Part shown: positions 8,212-13,066 of the stretch, piece after piece
How the letters are laid out: every line of letters begins with the position of its first letter
Numbering within the stretch: the stretch's first letter is position 1
The notes under the pieces: generated by a model
What the model saw: only the letters and a program-made list of their open reading frames with translations
Databases searched by the model: none
Told to the model about the DNA's origin: nothing
Source: Alphaproteobacteria bacterium
GTDB taxonomy: Bacteria > Pseudomonadota > Alphaproteobacteria > JAJFIK01
Length of the DNA stretch: 54,083 nt
Assembly: GCA_021774965.1 (NCBI GenBank)
Contig: JAJFIL010000259.1
Span: 1-54,083, forward strand
Direction of reading: 5' to 3'
Made by a program: the position numbers and the translations under genes

Positions 8212-8838
8212 CTAGATTCCCTTCCTAGCGGTGACCCACAGAAACTGCGCATCCTCGCCTTGTTCATCCTGGGCAACAATTTTCTGTTGCTCAATTTGGA
8301 AGCCAGCATCGCGCAGGAGGTTTAGGTTGGTTGGCGCATCGAACTGACTGAAAAAGTTGGGGGCGCCAAGCCAGTCGTCCTCGTGCCATCCCTCCAAATC
8401 AGTAACGCCAAAGCTCGCCAGCAGCAGGCCACCCGGGGTCAACCAAGTTTCTATTCTGGAAAGAAGAACGAGATGTTCGTCCCTCGGGACATGAGTAATT
8501 GAATAGAAAGCGATGACGGCATCAAAGGAGCAAGGCTCAAATGCCAGCTCTGTCATGTCCTCATGCAGGAATCGTCCACCCGGAACATTTGTTTTTGCCA
8601 TCCTGATTTGCTCTGGAGAGATATCTACGCCAATCAGATTATGACCATTTTCGACGAGGGACTTTGCGACCGGGATACCGGCACCGCACCCAAGATCAAG
8701 AATACGGGAGCTAGCGGTTAGCTCCGTTAAGAGTTGCTGTAAAAATCGCAAACGAATTTTGCTGTCTTGAGACCAAGTCAGATACGCCGTTGCAACTTTG
8801 TCGTACCCCTTGGCAACAGTCTTCTTGGAATCGTCCAT
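8212..8838 (-). CDS. Class I SAM-dependent methyltransferase
   Basis: A 208-residue Rossmann-fold methyltransferase. Motif I is ILDLGCGAGIPVAKSL (SAM-binding glycine loop), followed by LIGVDISPEQI (acidic residue for the ribose) and FDAVIAFYSITHVPRDEH, the usual post-motif II/III region. The substrate is not apparent. It is 27 bases downstream of the tetR gene on the same strand and may be cotranscribed with it, placing it in or next to the PspA/desaturase regulon. Confidence 0.9.
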   Translation of the reverse strand: MDDSKKTVAKGYDKVATAYLTWSQDSKIRLRFLQQLLTELTASSRILDLGCGAGIPVAKSLVENGHNLIGVDISPEQIRMAKTNVPGGRFLHEDMTELAFEPCSFDAVIAFYSITHVPRDEHLVLLSRIETWLTPGGLLLASFGVTDLEGWHEDDWLGAPNFFSQFDAPTNLNLLRDAGFQIEQQKIVAQDEQGEDAQFLWVTARKGI

Positions 8839-8865: not shown

Positions 8866-9558
8866 CTACCCCTCCAATTTCCGCACCACGGGTTCCACGA
8901 TGATTGCAATTTGCTCCATGGCTTCTTGGGACCCGTTGGCGGCAAAACCACCACTAATAGTGATAGTAATAATGCCGTGTACGGAGGACCAGAGCGCCAT
9001 AGCGATCTGAAGCCGGGCCATTTGGTCCCCCAGGTCAGGAATACCCCGCATTACTCCCTCGACGACGCCCAGAAGGGCACCTTCCTTGGCTCGATACCAA
9101 TCGGGCGGCGTTTCCTGTTTGGAATTGAAAGTAAGGTTAGCGGCCCATCTATTTTGGTTGGCCTGGACAAAATCCAGATAACCCTCAGCGAGGGCCATTA
9201 ATTGCTCATAAACCCCGCCGCCTTTGGCCGCTGCCTCTTGCACCACTTTTGTCTGAAAGGCGAAGAGATCATCATAGGTCTTGCCATTGGCGTAGCGCAC
9301 CAGCTCGTCCAGATCTTCGAAATACTTATAGATCGTGCCCACCGCCACGCCGGACCGGGCCGCGATGGCGCGGGCGTTGAGCTTTTCCAGTCCATCGGTG
9401 GCCAAAAGCGCGCCCGTCACATCAATAAGGGATTGCCGGGCCTCTTCACCCAAACGAGGGCGACCCCTTGGTTTGCCAGTGGGTTTACCAGAGGGTTTGG
9501 CCGATTTGGTTGGCGTTTTCTTCGCAGTTTTAGCGGTTTTCTTGGCGGTTTTGATCAT
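8866..9558 (-). CDS. TetR-family regulator with a lysine-rich, AT-hook-like N-terminal tail
   Basis: The protein has 230 residues from the ATG at 9558, which has TAGGAT 7 bases upstream; an ATG at 9567 lacks such a site. Residues 1-35 are a histone-H1-like tail of Lys-Thr-Ala-Pro repeats ending in KPRGRPRLG, which resembles an AT-hook core. The TetR helix-turn-helix follows (LNARAIAARSGVAVGTIYKYFEDLDEL). The C-terminal part contains ALWSSVHGIITITI, typical of the WHG ligand domain. It is divergent from the pspA-like operon, and triple TGAAC-N3-GTTCA sites lie in both that intergenic region and the desaturase promoter, so it is the obvious repressor of both. Confidence 0.9.
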   Translation of the reverse strand: MIKTAKKTAKTAKKTPTKSAKPSGKPTGKPRGRPRLGEEARQSLIDVTGALLATDGLEKLNARAIAARSGVAVGTIYKYFEDLDELVRYANGKTYDDLFAFQTKVVQEAAAKGGGVYEQLMALAEGYLDFVQANQNRWAANLTFNSKQETPPDWYRAKEGALLGVVEGVMRGIPDLGDQMARLQIAMALWSSVHGIITITISGGFAANGSQEAMEQIAIIVEPVVRKLEG

Positions 9559-9584
9559 GAGTCGCATCCTAGCACTGATTTTTT

Positions 9585-9654
9585 CGAACTCAGTTCATTT
9601 TTTACTTGAACAAGGTTCATTAATGCATAAATCTCTCGTTGTGAACGGTGTTCA
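9585..9654. promoter_or_regulatory. Three-operator region between tetR and the pspA-like operon
   Basis: Three copies of the dyad TGAAC-N3-GTTCA occur at 9585-9597 (first base C), 9607-9619 and 9642-9654, with start-to-start spacings of 22 and 35 bp. The middle copy contains a TTGAAC -35-like hexamer (9606-9611) for rightward transcription, and the last lies just before the ribosome site of the pspA-like gene. The first sits close to the tetR start and could serve autoregulation. The arrangement repeats at 10802-10870. Binding by the adjacent TetR protein is inferred. Confidence 0.8.
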
Positions 9655-9669
9655 TAAAAGGAGAGGAAA

Positions 9670-10392
9670 ATGATTTCAACTGTTATCTCACTTCTGAAAG
9701 GCCAATTGGCTCAAACAGAGGCTGGTTTGATTGACCAGAACGCCTGCCTGCTTTTGGAGCAGAAGGTGCGCGAGGCCGAGGCCGGCCACGACATGGCCAA
9801 GCGCGCGCTCGCCTCAATCCTTGTTACCAAACAGGTGGAAGCGCGCACGCTGGAGGCCTTGAGCCGGCGGATTGCGGACCTGGAAGAGCGAACCCGCGAG
9901 GCCCTTGGCGCAGGCAATGACAAGCTTGCGCGGGAAGCGGCGATGGTGTTGGCCGAGTTTGAGAACGAATGGACCTTGCGCGGCGCCAATATTGCCCGCG
10001 CGGACCATGCCGCCGCTCGTCTGCGCCTGGCCGTAGAGAAAGCCGCGCGAAAAATTACCGGGCTTCAACAGGGTCTTCTGACCGCTCGCGCCGTGGAAGC
10101 AGAGCGTGAGGCCACCAAAGGCCTGCGCGGTGACCTGAACGGCAGCGCCGCCATTGCCGAGGGAGAGAAACTACTCGCCCGTATTTTGGAACGCTCGGAT
10201 CCCATTGAGGAGATCGAGATCTTTGAACGTATGGATGCAGAGCTTTCAGGGGCAGAGATCGTCAATCGCCTCGCCGATGCTGGCTTTGGTGAGCCCACGC
10301 GTATTCAGGCGGATGATATTCTCATTCGCCTCACCGAGGGCGGTGCGCTTGCAGGCGGCCATCCCGATCCGGATCAAACCACAAGCAACTAA
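9670..10392 (+). CDS. PspA/IM30-like coiled-coil envelope-stress protein
   Basis: A 240-residue, mostly helical, charged protein resembling the PspA/IM30 family, peripheral inner-membrane proteins that stabilise damaged or leaky membranes. Residues ~20-170 are long coiled-coil heptads (KVREAEAGHDMAKRALASIL, RRIADLEERTREALGAG). A C-terminal segment from about 185 to 220 (ERSDPIEEIEIFERMDAEL, then EIVNRLADAGFG) matches the end of PspA-like proteins. An AAGGAGAGG ribosome site precedes the ATG. It is 26 bases upstream of the YiaA/YiaB-like gene in one operon. The family call is by character and context; divergence from E. coli PspA is large. Confidence 0.78.
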   Translation: MISTVISLLKGQLAQTEAGLIDQNACLLLEQKVREAEAGHDMAKRALASILVTKQVEARTLEALSRRIADLEERTREALGAGNDKLAREAAMVLAEFENEWTLRGANIARADHAAARLRLAVEKAARKITGLQQGLLTARAVEAEREATKGLRGDLNGSAAIAEGEKLLARILERSDPIEEIEIFERMDAELSGAEIVNRLADAGFGEPTRIQADDILIRLTEGGALAGGHPDPDQTTSN

Positions 10393-10418
10393 CCGCTAAA
10401 GCAAAAGGAGAAAGACCA

Positions 10419-10679
10419 ATGCTTGAACATTCAAAGACATGGATCAACTTCAACTACACTTGCGTGGCCACGGCCTACACCATGTTGGCCTTTGCGCTCG
10501 CATACATGCCGGTGGAAATGGCCACCAAGGGTTACATCGCCATGGCTGTCCTCTTCCTCAGCGGCTCGCTGGTGACACTGGTGAAAACCCTGCACGACGT
10601 CCGCGTGGGCACTGAGTTCACCACCAAACTGGAGAAAGCCCGTCAGGAGAAGATCTTGAACGAATACGTCAGCCAGTAA
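10419..10679 (+). CDS. YiaA/YiaB-family two-helix inner-membrane protein
   Basis: An 86-residue membrane protein with two hydrophobic helices (about residues 14-32 and 38-55) and a charged C-terminal tail (TTKLEKARQEKILNEYVSQ), characteristic of the YiaA/YiaB domain. The family has no assigned biochemical role. AAGGAG lies just before the ATG. It forms an operon with the PspA-like gene, so it may be its membrane partner or anchor. Transcription probably ends at the hairpin 10716-10746. Confidence 0.85.
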   Translation: MLEHSKTWINFNYTCVATAYTMLAFALAYMPVEMATKGYIAMAVLFLSGSLVTLVKTLHDVRVGTEFTTKLEKARQEKILNEYVSQ

Positions 10680-10715
10680 CCGCTCTTCCCCTCAACGGAC
10701 AAAAGAAAGGGTATC

Positions 10716-10746
10716 TCGCCCTCGAGCCATACTGGCTTGAGGGCGA
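10716..10746 (+). terminator. Hairpin terminator after the pspA-like operon
   Basis: Stem TCGCCCTCGAGCC (10716-10728) pairs with GGCTTGAGGGCGA (10734-10746) through 13 base pairs including one G-U, with a 5-base loop. There is no uridine run immediately after it, so termination may be imperfect or the hairpin may protect the mRNA 3' end. Confidence 0.6.
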
Positions 10747-10801
10747 ATGCGTTCAATAATCAGCAGTTTTCTGCCACTTCCCCCAAAATCATTATTTTTT
10801 C

Positions 10802-10870
10802 CGAACAATGTTCATTTTTTACTTGAACCTCGTTCAAAAATAGCTATGTTGCTCTTGTGAACAGCGTTCA
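10802..10870. promoter_or_regulatory. Three-operator promoter of the membrane hydroxylase gene
   Basis: Dyads TGAAC-N3-GTTCA lie at 10802-10814 (first base C), 10824-10836 and 10858-10870, spaced 22 and 34 bp, matching the tetR/pspA-like region almost exactly. The middle copy overlaps a -35 TTGAAC (10823-10828); after 16 bases comes a -10 TATGTT (10845-10850), so the third dyad covers the expected transcript start. Even the linker GTTCATTTTTTACTTGAAC is shared by both regions. A repressor occupying the three sites would shut the promoter off. Confidence 0.82.
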
Positions 10871-10965
10871 CAAACTAAACCTTCCGGAGCCACAAGGGAA
10901 TTGAAGGGCCCTTTTCGGAGAAGAGAAACAATTTGAGGAGGCCGACCATCGCGTCGGAAAATAGA

Positions 10966-12168
10966 ATGCGCACCAATAATTTTGACGTTTCCCACTCAAG
11001 AGTTTTGCCAGCTGGTTTTCTCAAGAAAACTGCTGCGGAAATTCGTTTGAGAATCCCCGAACCGCCCCAAGGCCCTCTTGATGCCGGCCAAGGTAAGCGC
11101 ACCGCCTATCTTGCCGTCGTCCTCAGCACCTTGAGCCTTTTATCGGTTCTTGCCATTCAGTTCCCCAGCTACTTGACCATTGCCGAATTGCGGGAGGCTT
11201 ATGGTCCATGGATCGCCGTAGTGCGCCTTGGTCTGCACGCGGGGATGATCGGCGGGGCAACCCTTGCCCTGATCGCCATTGCCCGGGATAAGAAACTACT
11301 GCCTGCCTCTGTTGCCCTGGCAATGATCGCCATCGCCCAATTGATGGGCGGCGCGGATGCCAAGGTTGGCGAGCTGGTGGCTGCGCCCCTTTCGGTTGGT
11401 GTTGACTGGTTGATCATCAGCGCGCTTGCGATTGGCGGCAGTTTCATTGCCATCGAGAAAGTAGCTCCCTTGCGTGGCGATCAGCCGATCTTGCGAGACA
11501 AGTGGGTGCTCGACATGAAGTATTTCGTGATCAATCACTTGTTGCTGGGCTTTTTCGTGATTTTCACCAACACCATGCTCAACGCCAGCTTTTCCTGGGC
11601 GCAAGTTGATGGTGTCGCCGCGGCCATTGGCCAGATCCACCCGGTGATCCAGTTCTTTATGATCATGGTGCTGATCGATCTGGCCCAATACTGGACCCAC
11701 CGCATGATGCATGAGGTGCCTTTCCTGTGGAAGTTCCACGCCGTGCACCACAGCGCCGAAAAGATGGACTGGCTTGCCTCCTCCCGCATGCATGTGCTTG
11801 AGCCCCTGGCCATGCGCGTTGCCATGCTGGCGCCAATCTTTGTGCTGGGCTTTGGCGAGGGCGTTGTAAACGCCTATGCTGGTTTTGTCGCGGTTCAAGC
11901 CATCTTGCTTCATGCCAATGTTAAGGCCGAGTTTGGTTGGTTCGAGAAGTTCTTTGTGGTCGCTCGTCACCACCATTGGCACCATGCCAATGAAGAGCGC
12001 GCCATCAACACCAACTACGCGGTTCACTTCCCCGTCCTCGATCACCTGTTCGGCACGTTCTGCACCGCCGATGGATGGCCAAGCGCGTACGGCATCGAGG
12101 AAGAAATCCCGGACACGGTTCTGGGTCAGGCAGCCTTTCCCTTCAAACTCTCCTCAACGGCTGCCTAA
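10966..12168 (+). CDS. Sterol desaturase / fatty acid hydroxylase family membrane enzyme
   Basis: A di-iron membrane oxygenase of about 400 residues. An N-terminal half of several hydrophobic helices precedes the catalytic domain, whose histidine boxes are HRMMH (codons from 11698), HAVHH (from 11737) and HHHWHH (near 11968-11985). Family members hydroxylate or desaturate sterols, carotenoids, fatty acids or alkylglycerols; the substrate here is unknown. The start is uncertain: the first ATG is 10966 but has no ribosome site, whereas a strong GGAGG (10937-10941) stands 6 bases before an in-frame ATC at 10948. The promoter carries three TetR-type operators. The gene ends at a clear terminator. 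Confidence 0.88.
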   Translation: MRTNNFDVSHSRVLPAGFLKKTAAEIRLRIPEPPQGPLDAGQGKRTAYLAVVLSTLSLLSVLAIQFPSYLTIAELREAYGPWIAVVRLGLHAGMIGGATLALIAIARDKKLLPASVALAMIAIAQLMGGADAKVGELVAAPLSVGVDWLIISALAIGGSFIAIEKVAPLRGDQPILRDKWVLDMKYFVINHLLLGFFVIFTNTMLNASFSWAQVDGVAAAIGQIHPVIQFFMIMVLIDLAQYWTHRMMHEVPFLWKFHAVHHSAEKMDWLASSRMHVLEPLAMRVAMLAPIFVLGFGEGVVNAYAGFVAVQAILLHANVKAEFGWFEKFFVVARHHHWHHANEERAINTNYAVHFPVLDHLFGTFCTADGWPSAYGIEEEIPDTVLGQAAFPFKLSSTAA

Positions 12169-12216: not shown

Positions 12217-12253
12217 CGGCGTCGCGGTATCCCCCCGCGGCGCCGTTTTGTTT
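12217..12253 (+). terminator. Rho-independent terminator of the hydroxylase gene
   Basis: CGGCGTCGCGG (12217-12227) pairs with CCGCGGCGCCG (12235-12245) through 11 base pairs (one G-U) with a 7-base loop, followed directly by TTTTGTTT. This is a textbook intrinsic terminator about 50 bases after the stop codon. Confidence 0.85.
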
Positions 12254-12286
12254 GACGGCGGCTTCCCCCGCCCCCATAACCATCCC

Positions 12287-13066
12287 ATGACCGATGTCGT
12301 TGAATACAATCGCCGCGCCTGGAATGCGCAAAGCCTTTCGGGCACCAATGAATGGTGCATGCCGGTGGATGCCGCCGCCATCAAAGCAGCACGAACAGGC
12401 AAATGGTCCGTGGTGCTGACCCCATCCCTGCCGGTCCCCCAAGATTGGTTTGGAGATATCAAGGGCAAGCGCGTGTTGGGTCTTGCCTCCGGGGGCGGCC
12501 AGCAAGTGCCATTGTTTGCCGCCGCCGGAGCGATTGTCACTTGCATTGATGCTTCAGACGAACAACTGGCCAAGGATGGCGAGGTGGCAACCCGCGAAGG
12601 GCTCGACATCACGCTGGAACGCGGGGACATGGCGGATCTTTCCCGCTTTGAGGATGCCAGCTTTGATCTCATCTTCCATCCGGTCTCCAACAGTTTTGCC
12701 AAGGATATCGCCCCCGTCTGGGCCGAATGCCACCGGGTGCTCAAGCCCGGCGGGCGGCTGCTGGCAGGGTTCATGAACCCCATCGTCTATGCCATCGATT
12801 GGGAGCAGATGGAGGCGGGCGGGCCCATCGAAATCCGCCATCCCCTGCCCTGGTCAGATGTGGATCATCTGCCCGAAGATCAATTGGACAAGCTCCTGGC
12901 GAGTGGAGCACCCCTGGAGTTCGGCCACTCGTTAGAGGCCCAGATCGGCGGGCAGATCGCAGCAGGCTTTTCGATCCAGGGTTTTTATGAAGACCGCTGG
13001 TCCGATGATCGCTACGCCATCAACAGGTTCATGCCCACGGCGATTGCGACATTGGCGGTGAAGTGA
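12287..13066 (+). CDS. Class I SAM-dependent methyltransferase
   Basis: A 259-residue methyltransferase. The glycine-rich SAM loop is VLGLASGGGQQVPLFAAAGA, followed by CIDASDEQLAKD (ribose-binding acid) and SFDLIFHPVSNSF. It then has HRVLKPGGRLLAGFMNP, the usual motif III region. I start at the ATG in TDVVEYNRRAWN because that sequence opens many members of this group; an upstream in-frame ATG at 12248 lies in the terminator hairpin's tail. The substrate is unknown and it is transcribed alone. Confidence 0.87.
   Translation: MTDVVEYNRRAWNAQSLSGTNEWCMPVDAAAIKAARTGKWSVVLTPSLPVPQDWFGDIKGKRVLGLASGGGQQVPLFAAAGAIVTCIDASDEQLAKDGEVATREGLDITLERGDMADLSRFEDASFDLIFHPVSNSFAKDIAPVWAECHRVLKPGGRLLAGFMNPIVYAIDWEQMEAGGPIEIRHPLPWSDVDHLPEDQLDKLLASGAPLEFGHSLEAQIGGQIAAGFSIQGFYEDRWSDDRYAINRFMPTAIATLAVK

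Follow-up and report, generated by a model that had tools for sequence, protein, structure and literature searches.

Several envelope stress systems built on PspA are known, namely PspF-PspABC, LiaFSR-LiaH and ClgR-PspAMN. The TetR-family repressors FabR, DesT, PsrA, FadR and FasR control lipid genes via short palindromes, and the ynbABC-type operon of E. coli carries CDP-alcohol phosphatidyltransferase and CdsA-like genes. We analyzed a stretch of 54,083 nucleotides of an alphaproteobacterial genome (hereafter the window) in which, as in the Psp response, genes for a PspA/IM30 protein and a small membrane protein appear to be under their own transcriptional control. The locus differs from the Psp response in that the putative switch is a TetR with repeated dyads, and not PspF, LiaRS or ClgR, that YiaAB replaces PspB/PspC, and that lipid enzymes are predicted to be co-regulated. 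PspF and PspB/PspC partners were absent from the locus, where the neighbours are TetR, YiaAB and a hydroxylase. The text of a 2024 survey of Psp systems contains neither 'TetR', 'YiaA' nor 'acyltransferase' (PMC11237479), and a literature search for PspA with YiaAB, YiaA or TetR gave no match, subscription papers being mostly outside its reach. A TetR-PspA-lipid regulon is apparently undescribed so far.

Two intergenic regions share an arrangement of three dyads

The first-pass annotation had proposed that one TetR governs two operons, PspA-YiaAB and a membrane hydroxylase, through duplicated promoters. The features of the locus are as follows.

8866..9567, minus strand: TetR-family regulator, 233 aa, presumed repressor, divergent from PspA (Pfam TetR_N, TetR_C_33)
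9585..9597: predicted operator dyad 1, PspA side, CGAACTCAGTTCA, one mismatch
9607..9619: predicted operator dyad 2, PspA side, TGAACAAGGTTCA, overlapping TTGAAC at 9606
9642..9654: predicted operator dyad 3, PspA side, TGAACGGTGTTCA, ending 16 bases 5' of the PspA ATG, near the expected transcript start
9670..10392, plus strand: PspA/IM30-family protein, 240 aa, ribosome-binding site GGAGAGG (Pfam PF04012)
10419..10679, plus strand: YiaAB-domain small membrane protein, 86 aa (Pfam PF05360)
10716..10746, plus strand: 14-bp hairpin between YiaAB and the hydroxylase promoter (RNA fold -27 kcal/mol)
10802..10814: predicted operator dyad 1, hydroxylase side, CGAACAATGTTCA, one mismatch
10824..10836: predicted operator dyad 2, hydroxylase side, TGAACCTCGTTCA, overlapping TTGAAC at 10823
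10858..10870: predicted operator dyad 3, hydroxylase side, TGAACAGCGTTCA, near the expected transcript start
10933..12168, plus strand: membrane fatty-acid-hydroxylase-family enzyme with the full His motif set (Pfam PF04116)

The three TGAAC-N3-GTTCA dyads first reported for each intergenic region were recovered, with spacings of 22 and 35 bp on the PspA side and 22 and 34 bp on the hydroxylase side, and the middle dyad indeed overlaps TTGAAC in both regions. The mismatched member of each trio is the outermost dyad (CGAAC...GTTCA) and the remaining four are exact. At zero or one mismatch, the pattern is found in the window at these six dyads only; dinucleotide shuffles of the 54 kb gave 0.07 exact dyads and 1.4 dyads with at most one mismatch. 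When each intergenic region was shuffled 5,000 times, three dyads were never obtained and the maximum was one. Because a strict consensus scan of the region for sigma-70 promoters found none, promoters were deduced from spacing and conservation. The hydroxylase candidate reads TTGAAC-N16/17-TATGTT and the PspA candidate TTGAAC with a weaker TAAATC element; both promoters would be positioned by these TTGAAC elements and by the TTGAAC...TAT spacing conserved in Rhodobacteraceae. The hairpin at 10716..10746 is possibly a transcription end; it has no clear T-run and the terminator scan made no call on it.

The regulator carries both the N-terminal HTH and the C-terminal ligand domain of the TetR family by profile match (TetR_N, PF00440, 36.6 bits; TetR_C_33, PF13305, 50.2 bits; both above cut-off), and palindromic dyads lie 18-87 bases 5' of tetR in the window, at its own putative promoter. 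A search of the 3.87 Mb genome for further TetRs like it gave no match at E<=1e-3, hence no close paralogue. Its best solved relative, PDB 3CJD, is distant (69 bits, E 4e-18). PspA scores 54 bits against the PF04012 model (cut-off 33.9) and is the sole match to it in the genome. Its structural model (pLDDT 77) is consistent with the ESCRT-III-like helical hairpin, the best 13 Foldseek matches all being Vipp1/PspA chains (probability 0.99-1.00, best E 1.6e-3). YiaAB scores 31.9 bits against PF05360 (cut-off 26.6), the Rhodobacteraceae copy being slightly under at 25.3 bits.

A third promoter with paired dyads precedes a phospholipid operon

Seven exact dyads were counted in the 3.87 Mb genome, compared to four for the reversed-pattern control, so single dyads are uninformative. 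Paired dyads are informative, with exactly three places in the genome and none for the control. Two are the PspA-YiaAB and hydroxylase promoters and the third is on contig C3:

C3:4554-4597 (G000:C3:2223-4597, L008), outside the window: third paired-dyad promoter, just 5' of a CDP-alcohol phosphatidyltransferase operon

This operon encodes CDP-OH_P_transf, Acyltransferase (PlsC-like) and CTP_transf_1 (CdsA-like) proteins, and its promoter has the layout seen in the window: TTGAAC inside one dyad is followed by TATGTA at a distance of 17 bases and then by the second dyad. Because C3 is a different contig from the window, in a genome bin with 7% estimated contamination, the third target carries some risk. 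In gene types only, the ynbABC-type operon likewise combines a CDP-alcohol phosphatidyltransferase with a CdsA-like gene, to which the operon of G184 (below) adds a hydrolase-methyltransferase fusion; the operon described here differs in lying under TetR dyads and in including a PlsC-like acyltransferase. A single exact dyad on C73, inside a reading frame and without a partner, was set aside as chance, given about four occurrences of the reversed-pattern control per genome. A large membrane protein that by look resembles an MscS-type channel ends right 5' of the C3 dyads.

The hydroxylase is linked to the dyads within its genus

The hydroxylase may start at TTG 10933 (411 aa) or at ATG 10966 (400 aa). 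It scores 99.4 bits with FA_hydroxylase (PF04116, cut-off 31), and ten His are invariant in a 20-sequence alignment (245, 249, 258, 261, 262, 276, 316, 336, 339 and 340). No significant match came from a Foldseek comparison of its model with the PDB, and no relative with a solved structure from sequence searches. Assignment as the ornithine lipid hydroxylase OlsE was rejected (98 bits against a cut-off of 475, over the C-terminal part only). As the genome encodes an OlsB-like acyltransferase (304 bits, cut-off 320), ornithine lipids are, speculatively, a candidate substrate.

Order-level comparison covered two other genomes, G001 from the same genus and G002. In G001, a TetR (58% identity) faces a hydroxylase (60%) across three dyads spaced as in the window, and PspA was not found; in G002, the paired-dyad pattern, PspA and hydroxylase were all not found. 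The TetR-hydroxylase pair is thus common to two members of the genus, and the window genome has PspA-YiaAB in between. Seven hydroxylase homologues from outside the genus (34-40% identity) had no dyads upstream. The expectation that relatives keeping the genes also keep the dyads therefore held for PspA-YiaAB and, within the genus, for the hydroxylase, but failed for the seven hydroxylase homologues elsewhere. As dyads are missing from homologues of other genera, which share about 40% identity or less, the hydroxylase would be a lineage-specific member of the regulon. SAM-dependent methyltransferase genes are present on both flanks of the locus (window 8212-8838 and 12248-13066), with no dyads upstream.

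The arrangement is conserved in Rhodobacteraceae

A set of 80 Rhodobacteraceae loci (1.06 Mb, including Ruegeria, Sulfitobacter, Shimia, Litoreibacter and Octadecabacter) was compared with the window. Of the gene set that the first-pass annotation suggested looking for in other genomes, TetR-PspA-YiaAB with dyads is present there: TetR is found in 79 of the 80 loci, YiaAB in all 80, and two to three dyads lie 5' of PspA in 80/80. The geometry of the window, three dyads spaced 20-23 then 33-36 bp, recurs in 63 loci, and a dyad with at most one mismatch lies near tetR in 77 (counted by reading the table). Upstream of PspA are found 216 of the 296 exact dyads, and the motif is sharper in this family, TGAACRNYGTTCA. 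PlsC is next in the operon in 20 loci and CdsA is present in 19 (also counted by reading the table). Since identity between the window TetR and those of Rhodobacteraceae is no more than 25-30%, and the recognition helix is partly different, shared operator recognition is argued from motif and synteny. The solved protein 3CJD is a close homologue of the PspA-adjacent TetR of Rhodobacteraceae (237 bits, full length); a literature search found no paper naming 3CJD together with TetR.

Paired dyads adjoin PspA or lipid-repair genes across Pseudomonadota

A sample of 398 genomes from the phylum was scanned for strict paired dyads, with the reversed pattern as control. Strict paired dyads were found in 43 genomes and the control in none. 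They mostly adjoin TetR and PspA-YiaAB, or TetR and the phospholipid-repair acyltransferase Aas. Outside the window's own genome, 29 places were examined and 26 had at least one expected neighbour: PspA at 14, Aas at 11 (both at 2) and a ceramidase-like protein at 3. Among 385 genomes of the class, G154, G330 and G231, which belong to divergent families, have paired dyads directly 5' of PspA homologues. G251 has the order TetR-PspA-YiaAB-PlsC-CdsA in one operon, versus two separate operons in the window genome, and in G184 a TetR lies opposite an operon of CDP-alcohol transferase, hydrolase-methyltransferase fusion, PlsC and CdsA, with paired dyads between. Most CDP-alcohol transferase homologues have no dyads. 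Dyads are also found 5' of Aas in some genomes. The Aas-type fusion of G231 passes the curated acyl-ACP-phospholipid O-acyltransferase model (1641 bits, cut-off 1349), a likeness to LplT/Aas lysophospholipid repair; the difference is that Aas is here tied to TetR, dyads and PspA-YiaAB, and that the window's own genome showed no Aas among its paired-dyad targets.

The dyads do not mark every PspA gene, as none was found at four distant PspA loci without YiaAB/TetR, nor at L059, which has YiaAB. Paired CGGAAC...GTTCCG sites in G034, G162, G259 and G266 were treated as a different motif and left out. Paired GGAAC-N3-GTTCC dyads occur in L061:5045-5090, where they lie beside a TetR, and in G034, G162 and G259; they probably define a sister regulon with the outer base changed.

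Further places with paired dyads were recorded. In three genomes of one family (L050:4353-5261, L204, L206) they precede a ceramidase-like membrane protein, a weak assignment under the Pfam cut-off. At L048:5219-5877 (G251) they adjoin two proteins of 96 and 106 aa with no Pfam match, which may belong to the regulon, and at L053:3975-5792 (G384) they lie between TetR and a DarB-like ketosynthase (369.9 bits, cut-off 450). L219-L222, from families of the phylum that do not belong to the class, show TetR and Aas with paired dyads; across the dyads from these two genes, L220 and L222 have a stress-responsive Dabb-domain gene.

Proposed mechanism and alternative explanations

Control of both operons by one TetR through shared three-dyad promoters, as first proposed, is supported by the set of three places in the genome, the geometry in Rhodobacteraceae, the G001 locus and the presence of a sole TetR of this type. 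On this sequence evidence we consider it probable that the locus belongs to a membrane-repair regulon under TetR repression that joins PspA coating with phospholipid repair, and to which the hydroxylase would be a lineage-specific addition. By binding TGAACRNYGTTCA-type dyads that cover the -35 box or lie at the transcript start, a TetR dimer would block RNA polymerase at the promoters of tetR itself, PspA-YiaAB, the hydroxylase and the distant CDP-alcohol phosphatidyltransferase/PlsC/CdsA operon. Binding of a membrane-derived or membrane-active hydrophobic molecule to the C-terminal domain would then open these promoters together. PspA, partnered by YiaAB as a small integral-membrane protein, would coat and stabilise the damaged inner membrane, whilst the enzymes would resynthesise or remodel phospholipids and, in the lineage of the window, also hydroxylate a lipid. 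The position of the dyads over the -35 box and start site fits simple repression with ligand-driven derepression, and the recurrence of PspA, YiaAB, Aas, PlsC, CdsA and CDP-alcohol transferase among the targets suggests that the trigger is membrane damage or altered lipids.

That the dyads are bound by some other regulator, the neighbouring TetR being a passenger, is very improbable. Half-site recognition is not readable from sequence, and the dyads of other families adjoin TetRs of only 25-30% identity whose recognition helix differs in part. However, a TetR_C_33-type TetR adjoins the paired dyads in most families and in both gene orders, an extra dyad is present 5' of tetR where the genes are co-directional, and the dyads of G001 fall right between tetR and the hydroxylase. 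A regulator that answers an antibiotic or detergent-like toxin rather than a lipid, with PspA and lipid enzymes giving tolerance as in efflux-type TetR regulons, would accord with the frequent sensing of drugs by TetR regulators and with the induction of Psp responses by membrane-active drugs. We regard it as quite unlikely: lipid enzymes and PspA recur among the paired-dyad targets seen, which include neither an efflux pump nor a gene for drug modification.

The regulon could also serve lipid supply, in the manner of FabR, DesT or PsrA, with PspA-YiaAB acting in lipid delivery or membrane growth and not in stress protection. Across genomes, the genes it targets encode Aas, PlsC, CdsA, CDP-alcohol transferase, ceramidase-like proteins and the hydroxylase, Aas also turns up at places that lack PspA, and Vipp1/PspA relatives are described as membrane-remodelling proteins in PDB entry titles. 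This explanation seems somewhat doubtful to us, as PspA is usually a stress protein (PMC11237479) and the window TetR falls far below the cut-offs of the equivalog models of lipid regulators (FabR, 19.6 of 151 bits; FadR, 20.7 of 200; FasR, 17.4 of 330). The regulon differs further from those of the lipid TetR regulators in including PspA-YiaAB.

Returning to the membrane-repair regulon, it is more widely spread and better supported than the window alone could reveal. It could tentatively, with slightly less than even confidence on our part, represent a widespread branch of the PspA response in Pseudomonadota, in which a TetR directly senses a product of lipid breakdown or overload and couples an ESCRT-III-like PspA-YiaAB coat to Aas, PlsC-CdsA and lineage-specific lipid enzymes that repair phospholipids on site. 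The type of switch differs from PspF-, Lia- and ClgR-controlled Psp, and its operator code can be scanned for in any genome. The PspA coat and phospholipid repair are predicted to be linked within one regulon. Culturable Rhodobacteraceae, Ruegeria and Litoreibacter among them, carry the system, and the structure of a protein closely homologous to their regulator is solved (3CJD), so the lipid state that induces PspA and the role of YiaAB are directly testable.
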